Below are positions 4,588 to 31,844 of a DNA stretch of 39,918 nucleotides, one piece after another. The position numbers and the translations under genes are program-made. Within the stretch, counting starts at the first letter, position 1. Each line of letters starts with the position of its first letter. Below the pieces are notes generated by a model. That model saw only the letters and a list, made by a program, of their open reading frames with translations, ran no database searches and had not been told where the DNA came from. Origin of the DNA: Candidatus Lambdaproteobacteria bacterium (GTDB lineage: Bacteria; SAR324; JACQKK01); NCBI GenBank assembly GCA_016199125.1, contig JACQHH010000120.1, forward strand, positions 1-39,918, in the 5' to 3' direction.

Positions 4588-5652
4588 CTAGTAGTCGCCC
4601 CGCTCGATCTTGCGCGTGATGGATTTGTACAGCCCGAAGGTGGGCAGGAACGCGGAGTGCTTGCCCGCCCCGCCGGCCACGACCACGTGGATGTCCTCGG
4701 CCTGGCCCACGATGGGCACCAGCGTATCGTCGTTGCCGGTGTCGACCCAGTCGGGCCACTTCATCATCTTCCACATGGCCTTGTCGCGGTGCACGCGCAC
4801 GGGAATGCGCGCGTGCTCGAAGAGAAACTCCTGCACGTCCCGGCGGCTCATGCCGTCGTCGGCGATCTGGCGTGCGTGCTCCGGCCCCAGCACCACCATC
4901 AGGTCGCCTTCCTGGATGCCGGCGGAATTGTTGTTGCCCAGCGTGGCCATGGTGCTGGCGGCGGTGAGCAGGATGTTGCGCCCGGATGTGCACACGTGGT
5001 CGTTGATGTTGTGCGGCGCCTCGGCGGAGACCACCGTCACCGTGCTGTCCTCGACGCGGAAACCGGCGTCCACGCGGTAGGGCGCCCAGGGCGTGGCCGC
5101 TTCATTTTCCGCGAAGCAGTAGCTGAACTTGCCCGGCGAGCCCTGGGTCGAGTGGTCGCCCGCCCCCGGCAGCCCGCCGCCCACGTTGCGCAGCACCAGG
5201 CGCATGGCCCGCCCCAGACAGGCGTTGGCGCGGAAGCCGGGGCCGAACAGGCCGTAGCCGCTGTGGATGCCCAGCTCCGCCGCCAGGGGCCCGCTGACCA
5301 TCATGGCGACGCCGCAGGGATGCGTGGTGGCCTGCACGCTGTAGAGCCCGAAGCGCGGATCGCACGCTGCCTCGATGGCCGTCACCAGCACTGGCATGTG
5401 CGCCGGCAGGCAGCCGGCCATCACCGCGTTGACCGCCACGTTTTCCACCGTGGCCTCGGCATAGCGCGGGGGTATGACGCCGATCACTTCGCGCGCCGAG
5501 CGGCGGGATCCGGCGATCATGGCCCGCACCTTCTCCACGGTCGGCGGAATCACGGGCAGCCCGTCGCTCCACGCCTTGGCGTGAAACGTCTCCTGCATCT
5601 CGTCGATGTCGGCGTAGGTAAGCTGCTGGCTCATCAATTCTTCGTTCAACAT
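4588..5652 (-). CDS. Conserved protein of the family found next to UGSC (seleno)proteins; function unknown
   Basis: From the ATG at 5652 (GGAGAGG seven bases upstream) the gene encodes 354 residues, MLNEELMSQQLTYADIDE onward. Conserved-looking blocks are GLPVIPPTVEKVRAMI, AEATVENVAVNAVMAGCLP, GFRANACLGRAMRLVLRNVGG, GSPGKFSYCFAENE, EDSTVTVV followed by APHNINDH, and MATLGNNNSAG. From memory these are the signatures of a family commonly encoded beside UGSC-motif (seleno)proteins; I cannot run a search here. Cysteines occur in HPCG, NACLG, YCFAENE and HVCTSG. No signal peptide or membrane segment is visible, so it is probably cytoplasmic. No UGSC-motif gene is present here. An open extension to 5955 is not credible as protein. 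The reaction is unknown. Confidence 0.75.
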   Translation of the reverse strand: MLNEELMSQQLTYADIDEMQETFHAKAWSDGLPVIPPTVEKVRAMIAGSRRSAREVIGVIPPRYAEATVENVAVNAVMAGCLPAHMPVLVTAIEAACDPRFGLYSVQATTHPCGVAMMVSGPLAAELGIHSGYGLFGPGFRANACLGRAMRLVLRNVGGGLPGAGDHSTQGSPGKFSYCFAENEAATPWAPYRVDAGFRVEDSTVTVVSAEAPHNINDHVCTSGRNILLTAASTMATLGNNNSAGIQEGDLMVVLGPEHARQIADDGMSRRDVQEFLFEHARIPVRVHRDKAMWKMMKWPDWVDTGNDDTLVPIVGQAEDIHVVVAGGAGKHSAFLPTFGLYKSITRKIERGDY

Positions 5653-5755
5653 GCCGCCTCTCCTCAGGTGCTGTCGGGTGGGGATCCCGCGCAGGCCTGC
5701 CCCACACGCGCCGGGCCGTACAGGCGGTGTGCCGCGTGCGGCCGTCCCCGCATGT

Positions 5756-5784
5756 TCTATACCCAAGCACCGGCCAAAACAAAA
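5756..5784 (-). promoter_or_regulatory. Possible promoter for the minus-strand gene at 5652
   Basis: On the minus strand TATAGA (5761-5756) lies 17 bases after a weak -35, TTTTGT (5784-5779), about 100 bases upstream of the start at 5652. Together with the plus-strand promoter at 5937 it forms a divergent control region. Apart from these elements I see nothing in the 375-base gap 5653-6027. Confidence 0.3.
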
Positions 5785-5936
5785 GGCGCCGGGAGACCCT
5801 CGCCGAGCCAAGCCCGCCGCGCGGACACGCGTGTGACTGAGCGGCCGGTCTCGCACCGCGGCATGCGCCGCGGGGCCGCAATCCTCGCGCCGCATCCCGC
5901 CCGCGAACGATGGCCGATGCGCCGGGCGCGGGCGGG

Positions 5937-5982
5937 TTGTCAACCCCGGCGCCACCGACTACGATCCGTGCACATTGGGGGA
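5937..5982 (+). promoter_or_regulatory. Promoter plus leader element upstream of the crotonase gene
   Basis: TTGTCA (5937-5942), a 17-base spacer and TACGAT (5960-5965) form a good sigma-70-type promoter. Three bases later comes TGCACATTGGGGGA (5969-5982), where transcription should begin. The same 14 bases recur at 6939-6952, again just after a -10-like hexamer. The gene start at 6028 is about 55 bases downstream. Confidence 0.5.
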
Positions 5983-6027
5983 TGCCGCGTCCGACGGGGC
6001 GCACGACTGCCGAGTGGAGACGAAACC

Positions 6028-6819
6028 ATGAAGAACGATGCCATCGAATACAAGCGCCGCGGCGCTGCGGGCTGGGCCGTGCTGAACCGGCCCGACGCCA
6101 TGAACGCCATCTCGCCGGAGCTGGTGGAGGACCTGGTGGAAGTGATGGACGCCGCGCAGGCCGACGAGGCCGTCAAGGCCCTGGTGATCACGGGCAAGGG
6201 CCGCGCCTTCAGCGCCGGCGCCGACCTGAAGTTCATCAAGCAGGCCTTCGGAGAGCCGGGCTTTCCCACCTTCAACAAGTTCATCCGCCACCTGCTGCTG
6301 GTGTTCAAGCGCCTGGAGGCGTTCCCCAAGCCCGTGATTGCGGCGGTCAACGGATTGGCCCTGGCCGGGGGCCTGGAGCTGCTGCTGTGCTGCGATGTCG
6401 TGATCGCCGCGGAGAGCGCGCGCATCGGCGATGCCCACGCCAACTTCGGCCTGCTGCCCGGCGGCGGCGGCTCGGCGCGCCTGCCGCGCAAGGTGGGCCC
6501 CACCTGGGCCAAGTATCTGCTGTTCACCGGGGAGTTCTTTCCCGCGCGCGACCTGGTGGGTCCGGGCCTGGTGAACCGGGTGGTGCCTGACGGCGAACTT
6601 GAAGCCGCCACGGAAAAGCTGGTGGCGAGCATTGGCAAGAAGAGTCCGCTGGGTCTGCGCTACATGAAGGACCTGGTCAATTTCGGCCTGGAGCAGTCGC
6701 TGGAAACCGCGTTGTACCAGGAGATCCTGGCCTTCCAGGGGTACAGCCAGTCCAAGGACATCAAGGAGGGCCTGAGCGCATTCAACGAGAAGCGCACGCC
6801 CAGCTTTGTCGGCAAGTAG
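6028..6819 (+). CDS. Enoyl-CoA hydratase/isomerase family (crotonase) protein
   Basis: This 263-residue crotonase has the oxyanion-hole segments GRAFSAGADLKF and NGLALAGGLELLLCCD, followed by GLLPGGGGSARLPRKVG. Comparison with rat mitochondrial enoyl-CoA hydratase places the first catalytic glutamate (Glu144) in GGLEL, where it is kept. The second (Glu164) corresponds to His in GDAHANFG. A simple syn-hydration is therefore not assured, and isomerase, hydrolase or another crotonase reaction is possible. The start is the ATG at 6028 after a weak GGAGAC; long upstream extensions in this frame are antisense shadow. It lies divergent to the UGSC-associated gene and upstream of a TerB-like gene. 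Confidence 0.9.
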   Translation: MKNDAIEYKRRGAAGWAVLNRPDAMNAISPELVEDLVEVMDAAQADEAVKALVITGKGRAFSAGADLKFIKQAFGEPGFPTFNKFIRHLLLVFKRLEAFPKPVIAAVNGLALAGGLELLLCCDVVIAAESARIGDAHANFGLLPGGGGSARLPRKVGPTWAKYLLFTGEFFPARDLVGPGLVNRVVPDGELEAATEKLVASIGKKSPLGLRYMKDLVNFGLEQSLETALYQEILAFQGYSQSKDIKEGLSAFNEKRTPSFVGK

Positions 6820-6930
6820 GCGATGAGACGACGGCCCTGCCTGCGCCGCCCGGCGCCGCGCTCACCGGGCCTGCCCGCGGTCCGGGCCGGATCGGGCGCG
6901 GTTACGGTGGCGCTTTGCCATTTGGCGCAG

Positions 6931-6952
6931 TATAACTCTGCACATTGGGGGA
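6931..6952 (+). promoter_or_regulatory. Promoter-like -10 and shared leader element upstream of the TerB-like gene
   Basis: TATAAC (6931-6936) is followed two bases later by TGCACATTGGGGGA (6939-6952), the same 14-mer seen at 5969-5982. No convincing -35 is present at 16-18 bases; TGGCGC at 6908-6913 would be the 17-base partner. The gene starts at 6996. Confidence 0.45.
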
Positions 6953-6995
6953 CCAGATCCCGGCAGCCTGAGGACCTTCGACCGGTACACCGCTC

Positions 6996-7415
6996 ATGAG
7001 CACGAATTTTCGTACACCCATCGCCTCGATGAATGACCAGCAAAAAGAATGGTTTGCCACCGCCATGGTGTCCATGGTGGTCGCCGACGGCGATGTGAGC
7101 CAGGGCGAGGTGCAATCGCTGCTCGCCTCGCTCTCGTTCATCAAGTCACCGGAGACCCAGGAACGGTTGAAGAAGTACATTCACTACAAGACCGTCCCAG
7201 TGCTCAACGCATTTGTGGGCTGGGACAAGGAACAGAAGCGCCGCGCGGCCATGCTCTTCGACCTGATTCACGTGGCCATCGCCGACCAGGATCTCTCTGC
7301 GAAAGAGCAACAGCAGTTCCACCACATCGGCAAGATGCTGGGCTTCCCCCGGGATCAGGTGGAGCACCTGATCAAGCTCGGCGCCAAACACATCGACCAG
7401 ATGCCCACCGAATAG
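6996..7415 (+). CDS. TerB-like (tellurite resistance TerB fold) helical protein
   Basis: This 139-residue soluble alpha-helical protein contains two acidic loops typical of the TerB/DjlA-N fold: VADGDVSQGEVQSLLASL and IADQDLSAKEQQQFHHIGKMLGF. In TerB such acidic loops bind divalent cations and the domain is thought to work at the inner face of the membrane in stress responses. No other ter genes are nearby, so tellurite resistance should not be assumed. It has its own likely promoter at 6931, and a second TerB-like protein is encoded at 31281-31844. The alternative ATG at residue 12 lacks a better ribosome site. Confidence 0.75.
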   Translation: MSTNFRTPIASMNDQQKEWFATAMVSMVVADGDVSQGEVQSLLASLSFIKSPETQERLKKYIHYKTVPVLNAFVGWDKEQKRRAAMLFDLIHVAIADQDLSAKEQQQFHHIGKMLGFPRDQVEHLIKLGAKHIDQMPTE

Positions 7416-7554
7416 GCGCCGCAGCCGCCCGCATGGGCGACGCGCACCATGGCGCCGGTGCCGCAGTGCGGACCCGCGGCGGCCGCACCCTCCAGCCCGC
7501 GGGCCAAGCGCTCCCCCGGCGCAAGCCGCGCTGAATTCCGCACCGCCGCGGCGC

Positions 7555-7944
7555 TCAGTCTCCCAGGACCGCATCCACTTCGATTTCGACCACGAGCTGC
7601 GGATCGACCAGCGCCGACACCTCGACCAGGGTGGCGGTGGGCGGATGCGTCGCAAACACGGCCTGGTGCGCCCGGCCCACCTCCGAGGCCATGGCGATGT
7701 CCGTGACGAACATGCGCGTGCGCACCACCTGCGACATGGTGCCTCCCAGCTTTTCCAGCGCCTTGCGGATGATCTCGAAGCAGCGCAGGGTCTGCGGATA
7801 GGTTTCGCCCGGGGCCACGATGCTGCCGTCGTCGGCATAGGCGGCCGTGCCCGAGACGAAGATCAGATTGCCGCGGCGAATGGCCCGGCAATAGCCAAAC
7901 ACCGGCTCGGCGGGCGATCCGGAAAACACGCGATCCGCGGGCAT
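7555..7944 (-). CDS. RidA/YjgF-family protein lacking the canonical catalytic arginine
   Basis: This 129-residue protein has the RidA fold signatures RGNLIFVSGTAAY, GETYPQTLRCFEIIRKALEKLGG, VVRTRMFVTDI and VEVSALVDPQLVVEIEVDAVLGD. RidA enzymes hydrolyse reactive enamines and imines using an arginine in a P-A-R-(S/T)-x-V-E motif. Here that stretch is P-T-A-T-L-V-E-V with Ala in place of Arg, as in several Rid subfamilies of unknown activity. AAGGAG precedes the ATG at 7944. It is the last gene of an apparent minus-strand run SDR - methyltransferase - RidA, separated from the methyltransferase gene by 85 bases. Confidence 0.88.
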   Translation of the reverse strand: MPADRVFSGSPAEPVFGYCRAIRRGNLIFVSGTAAYADDGSIVAPGETYPQTLRCFEIIRKALEKLGGTMSQVVRTRMFVTDIAMASEVGRAHQAVFATHPPTATLVEVSALVDPQLVVEIEVDAVLGD

Positions 7945-31280: not shown

Positions 31281-31844
31281 TCAGGACGATTCGATCACGG
31301 CGCGCACGCAGCTCAGCGCGCTGTACTTGTGCCGCTCCAGGTTGATGGGCACACGGACGGGCTCGGCGCCCAGGCGCTTGCGGATGCGGGTGAAGTAGGC
31401 GTGCTCCTCCGGCCGGCGTTGGCTATCGGCTTTGAGCACCAGCGTCATGCAGACCAGTGTCGCGTGGCGCACCAACTCGTTGTCCAGCACCATGCAGGCC
31501 GTGTCCTCGTCCAGCGCCTGGTACCAGGGATCGGCGCGGTAATCGGGCAGCCGCGCCATCTGCGCCAGCAGGTTCACCATCTGCCGTTCCTCCAGCGCCA
31601 CGCGCCCGTCGGAGCGGCTCATGCCCTCGCAGAAATACAGCAGCGCCAGCAGATGGCGTTCCGGCGCCGGAGGCAGCGGCTGCGCGGCGGCGGACGCCGG
31701 TGGCTCGGCCGGCGCCTGGACAGGTTGCGGCTGCGCGGCGGCGGACGCCGGTGGCTCGACCGGAGCGGCCGCGGGACGCAGGGCCACGACGGCGGTCACC
31801 ACCCAGCGGGGCGCGTCCGCCGTGCTGTGTGCGGTCTCGGTCAT
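31281..31844 (-). CDS. TerB-like helical protein with duplicated Pro/Ala linker
   Basis: This 187-residue protein has an N-terminal disordered region made of two copies of EPPASAAAQP within Pro/Ala-rich sequence (about residues 25-58). A helical domain follows (HLLALLYFCEGMSRSDGRVA, then LEERQMVNLLAQMARLPDY). The acidic SRSDGRV loop followed by E-x-R-Q resembles the TerB fold, though less clearly than the protein at 6996-7415. AAAGG precedes the ATG at 31844; a longer open frame to 32129 is not supported. It converges with purE and is divergent from the AhpD-like gene. Function unknown. Confidence 0.65.
   Translation of the reverse strand: MTETAHSTADAPRWVVTAVVALRPAAAPVEPPASAAAQPQPVQAPAEPPASAAAQPLPPAPERHLLALLYFCEGMSRSDGRVALEERQMVNLLAQMARLPDYRADPWYQALDEDTACMVLDNELVRHATLVCMTLVLKADSQRRPEEHAYFTRIRKRLGAEPVRVPINLERHKYSALSCVRAVIESS
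31676..31758 (-). repeat. In-frame direct repeat, 32 identical bases at a 51-base period
   Basis: Positions 31676-31707 and 31727-31758 are identical over 32 bases and encode the repeated EPPASAAAQP of the TerB-like protein. The 51-base period keeps the frame, so copy number could vary between strains without breaking the gene. Confidence 0.75.

Follow-up and report, generated by a model that had tools for sequence, protein, structure and literature searches.

Do two neighbouring genes share a regulatory element when the same short word lies at matching positions in front of both? In the window (the whole stretch of 39,918 nucleotides that was analysed), the 14-base word TGCACATTGGGGGA occurs just downstream of two -10-like hexamers, once ahead of a gene of the crotonase family and once ahead of a TerB-domain gene. 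A sequence-only reading had judged this arrangement unlikely by chance, and had proposed a common regulator or a leader RNA for the two genes. Our own reading is that two sigma-70-like promoters have one local operator-like word in common; we put the odds of this putative operator against coincidence at about even.

The features of the locus are collected in Table 1. The match after TACGAT and TATAAC was confirmed from the sequence, both in its coordinates and in its spacings. The two copies are exact, lie 970 bp apart on one strand, and have nearly equal offsets to the start codon: 45 bases (5983-6027) separate the first from the ATG at 6028, and 43 bases (6953-6995) the second from the ATG at 6996. 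Support for both start codons comes from homologues whose alignment begins at residue 1 and which themselves open with a start codon. Identity stops at 14 nt on both sides, the flanks of the two copies being without match. The spacing between word and hexamer differs by one base between the sites (3 versus 2 nt) and, reading by eye, the word is not palindromic. Within the window, no further copy with up to three mismatches was found beyond these two (5.0 expected in shuffles).

Table 1. Positions of the features discussed, numbered from the first base of the window
Feature	Position	Strand	Remarks
Sigma-70-like promoter 1, TTGTCA-17 nt-TACGAT	5937..5965	+	9/12 consensus bases; TACGAT at 5960-5965
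Copy 1 of TGCACATTGGGGGA	5969..5982	+	3 nt past the -10-like hexamer, near the presumed +1
Crotonase / enoyl-CoA hydratase family gene, 263 aa	6028..6819	+	Pfam ECH_1, E 6.9e-60; homologues up to 60% identical
-10-like hexamer TATAAC, putative promoter 2	6931..6936	+	without a -35 passing the scan
Copy 2 of TGCACATTGGGGGA	6939..6952	+	2 nt past the -10-like hexamer
TerB-domain gene, 139 aa	6996..7415	+	Pfam TerB, 36.5 bits vs cut-off 24.4

A consensus scan of positions 5650-7560 on either strand returned a single promoter-like site, TTGTCA-17-TACGAT, where 0.3 were expected in shuffles; no terminator was found by scan in the same region. Compared with TATAAT, the hexamer of site 1 has 4/6 matches and that of site 2 has 5/6. 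Site 1 has its TTGTCA at 17 nt, whereas no -35 at 16 to 18 nt passes the scan at site 2. The promoter position proposed earlier is thus reasonable at site 1 and plausible at site 2. A sigma-54 promoter was considered as well; its spacing, checked by eye at both sites, does not fit.

The crotonase fell under the cut-off of every NCBIfam model among the matches listed (25 of 73), and its own genome holds 28 crotonase-family matches at E 1e-25. For the TerB-domain protein, a sequence search at E up to 0.1 gave no solved relative, and we know of no clear general role for the family. Among the neighbours that can be recognised, enzymes prevail (acyl-CoA dehydrogenase, zinc-dependent and short-chain dehydrogenases, MaoC-type hydratases and an O-methyltransferase), and an ammonium transporter gene is also present in the window. 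Upstream of the crotonase gene, a 354-aa reading frame on the minus strand (4588-5652) is probably a gene; at E 0.001 it had no hit in Pfam or NCBIfam. Elsewhere in the window, a perfect 32-nt direct repeat of 88% G+C was observed at 31676-31707 and 31727-31758, its starts 51 nt apart.

The operator reading sets out from what is observed, namely the repeat, where it lies with respect to the start codons and the -10-like hexamers, and the lack of other exact copies in the draft genome. A sigma-70-like promoter of its own would serve each gene, and the 14-mer common to both would span the region where transcription should start, so that +1 would fall within the word. A DNA-binding protein encoded elsewhere may then bind the word, straddling the start site, and would in this way repress or tune the crotonase and TerB-domain genes together. 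Two observations speak for such an arrangement at once: the offsets are matched both to the start codons and to the hexamers, and no sigma-70-like site other than promoter 1 was picked up by the scan of the region. On the other side stand the differing -10 spacing, the lack of a recognisable -35 at promoter 2 and the asymmetry of the word, many operators being palindromic. Among known systems, the general class of operators overlapping a sigma-70 transcription start is comparable in having a short identical word a few bases past two -10-like hexamers; here, however, the word is not palindromic, a third exact site is lacking, and the regulator is only putative. NtrC-type and PhaR-type sites begin with or contain TGCAC, as the word does, but by eye neither copy has a matching second half-site. 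The 14-mer was not found in the literature searched, and related searches gave nothing relevant. The common regulator proposed from the sequence alone was sought in the window itself, where none of 62 distinct reading frames scanned gave a hit at E 0.001 to any family of DNA-binding regulators (some of the 62 were parts of the 178 open reading frames listed, and many are probably not the coding frame).

The main rival is coincidence: two unrelated promoters may carry the same 14-mer, picked out by eye in a repeat-rich window. We regard this as a serious possibility, held a little less firmly than the operator. The G+C content of the window is 69%, and it contains 47 maximal exact direct repeats of at least 14 nt, compared to a mean of 28.9 in order-3 Markov simulations (n = 200). 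The 14-mer pair is therefore unremarkable by itself, which favours coincidence. The pair is, for its part, more A+T-rich than most 14-mer repeats of the window; a repeat pair with a G+C fraction of at most 0.6 inside 1.5 kb was obtained in 3.5% of order-3 Markov simulations.

The picture changes when position is counted. A same-strand 14-nt match between the actual upstream stretches (372 and 176 nt) has an expectation of 0.003. For a 14-nt match in the last 100 nt before the starts, with offsets within 3 nt of each other, the expectation is 3.4e-5 per gene pair. This corresponds to 0.0012 over 35 neighbouring pairs, rises to 0.02 over 595 pairs and reaches 0.09 if 2600 neighbouring pairs are taken for the whole genome, the gene numbers 35 and 2600 being guesses. 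A position-matched 14-nt match was obtained in 3 of 200,000 draws of two 100-nt window stretches, a total in which draws less than 120 nt apart were skipped yet counted. Only 458 of 39,895 window positions lie 2 to 3 nt after a hexamer with at least 4/6 matches to TATAAT, and this -10 context, which is excluded from the expectation of 0.0012, lowers the chance expectation further. All these figures flatter the pattern, since many others were possible and this one was chosen by eye in hindsight; this selection, like the value of about 0.09 per genome, counts in favour of coincidence. We conclude that the arrangement, that is, the repeat together with its matched position, is unlikely to arise by chance. 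The earlier statement to that effect holds when position is counted (about 0.001 per window), which is the point that tells against coincidence; it does not hold for the 14-mer alone.

If the word were a binding site in wider use, one would expect to find it at other promoters. For the source genome there is a draft assembly, 238 contigs with a total of 2.98 Mb and a completeness of 73.5%. Throughout this draft the exact word is found only at the two window sites, so that the many copies away from promoters that the sequence-only reading had named as a refutation did not turn up. The single one-mismatch copy sits within a probable coding frame. With up to two mismatches, 12 places were found: the two known copies and 10 near copies. 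Six of the latter lie in long frames with G+C-rich third positions (contigs C104, C8, C44, C63, C106 and C116), and four are not clearly in such a frame (C52, C95, C158 and C172). A -10-like hexamer (at least 4/6) 2 to 3 nt upstream was found for none of the 10 near copies, the best having 3/6, and for none of nine further one-mismatch copies of a 12-mer form. The proposed search for the word behind a -10 hexamer thus gave no further case, which weighs against the operator, and a genome-wide regulon was not seen in the 73.5%-complete draft. The 10-mer TGCACATTGG has five genome copies: the two known ones, two in coding frames, and one upstream of a frame read as glucose-6-phosphate dehydrogenase, where by eye no -10 is in place.

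The looser forms were more abundant than their reversed-pattern controls (13 versus 1 for the one-mismatch 12-mer, 12 versus 3 for the two-mismatch 14-mer, and 5 versus 0 for the 10-mer), but reversing a pattern changes its dinucleotides, and under uniform composition we estimate about 13, 19 and 6 copies of these forms. Two further candidates were rejected. A general promoter feature consisting of a -10 followed by TGCAC was not retained: TATA-N3-5-TGCAC gave 7 matches (site 2 included) compared to 8 when the pattern was reversed, long frames with G+C-rich third positions enclosed three of the 7 (L193, L194 and L196), and the stricter TATAAT-N2-3-TGCACA had no match in the window. The one-mismatch 12-mer on contig C50, flanked by frames that we take from their translations to be GreA-like and PHP-type, starts 21 nt before a TATACA and not after it; this copy also has a 4/6 hexamer, at spacing 4.

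One near copy deserves separate mention. The two-mismatch form TGAACAATGGGGGA (L238, C95:15067-15080) lies 42 nt before the leuS start codon, compared to 45 and 43 nt in the window, and is intergenic, with leuS on one side and, on the other, the end of a frame read as 2-isopropylmalate synthase. The identity of leuS was confirmed (NCBIfam TIGR00396, 608.9 bits versus a cut-off of 548.4). No -10-like hexamer precedes this near copy, the matches reaching at most 1/6. Seven other family genomes had a leuS match, and the start was readable in six, the seventh (L249) being without the start of the gene; in these six relatives the word was absent within 300 nt upstream (at least 5 mismatches). By our own arithmetic, with nine copies of this kind the probability of finding one within 3 nt of the offset is roughly 3%. 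The leuS near copy is probably due to chance, yet it is the sole hint of a third site and, as such, a point for the operator.

Conservation among relatives was then considered. The phylum and class searches covered the same 52 genomes, in which the genus of the window is represented by this genome alone. None of the 51 other genomes of the phylum contains the exact 14-mer; 36 viral stretches carry it, once each, and were taken as background. Homologues of the TerB-domain gene are present in all nine other family genomes, the best ones being 37 to 58% identical. Upstream of the best homologue in each (n = 9; up to 300 nt, coding strand), at least 5 mismatches to the word were counted, and no crotonase homologue was found near these nine loci in flanks of up to 1.5 kb. 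For the crotonase gene, the upstream stretches of 34 loci, the first of the 80 listed, were searched on both strands, and the fewest mismatches were 4 (one upstream stretch, that of L116, was taken without orientation). By eye, the word was not seen upstream of the crotonase homologue of genome G008 either, and at locus L115 a stretch CATTGGGA, 20 nt before the ATG, has 6 of 14 mismatches to it. Among 109 crotonase-family loci (flanks up to 2.5 kb, many shorter), none had a TerB homologue at E 1e-8, and 58 had an acyl-CoA dehydrogenase homologue. Given the absence of the word upstream of the homologues tested, and of TerB beside crotonase, neither the pairing of the two genes nor the word as an upstream element is conserved at the distances available. 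These results count against the operator, as against the common regulator first proposed, and in favour of coincidence. All the relatives compared belong to other genera, so an element at the level of the genus is possible.

The genome also contains a TerB paralogue (L177, C126:5434-5808), 43% identical to the TerB-domain gene of the window. One scan of genome contigs with the TerB protein gave no relative. Upstream of the paralogue, a -10-like run is followed by GGCTGCACGTGCAATGCAGCAG, a partly palindromic word; it was rejected as a further copy, being a different word from TGCACATTGGGGGA.

Short local copying offers a third explanation, in which gene conversion or slippage would have carried a fragment of one start region into the other, and the two genes would have no regulation in common. 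The distance of 970 bp, the common strand and the nearly equal offset are what such an event might leave behind. However, identity ends abruptly at 14 nt on both sides, usual gene conversion tracts are longer than this, and the hexamers and their spacing differ; we consider local copying improbable.

Weakest of all, and very improbable in our view, is a common 5' leader RNA element that would start near +1 and act on the translation or stability of both messages: the two transcripts would open with the same bases if +1 lies within the word, and the leuS near copy has the same start-codon offset (though no -10), but only 14 nt are in common, with nothing obvious shared downstream of them, no Rfam family matched positions 5600-7600 at E up to 1, and the 72-nt stretches from the word onward fold into differing shapes, neither of them more stable than those of shuffled sequences (z -0.90 and +0.91). 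The leader RNA of the sequence-only reading, which resembles the cis-acting families of Rfam in the position of the word within the expected 5' leader and differs from them in lacking a family match and a common or unusual fold, accordingly finds little support, the leuS near copy being the one hint that placement within the leader may count.

A putative operator shared by the two promoters stays beside coincidence as the reading to be weighed. In a more specific and unlikely form, it would belong to a small lineage-specific regulon in a sparsely sampled phylum, in which one putative regulator would bind TGCACATTGGGGGA at both starts, and perhaps a weaker version ahead of leuS, and would thereby couple the breakdown of acyl-CoA to a TerB-type protein. 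As it stands, the finding is a promoter-position repeat in two copies, without support from relatives, and a modest lead. If real, it would be a feature of an ordinary kind, two promoters with an operator-like word in common, and would connect a TerB-domain protein with how an acyl-CoA enzyme is controlled in a single uncultured lineage.
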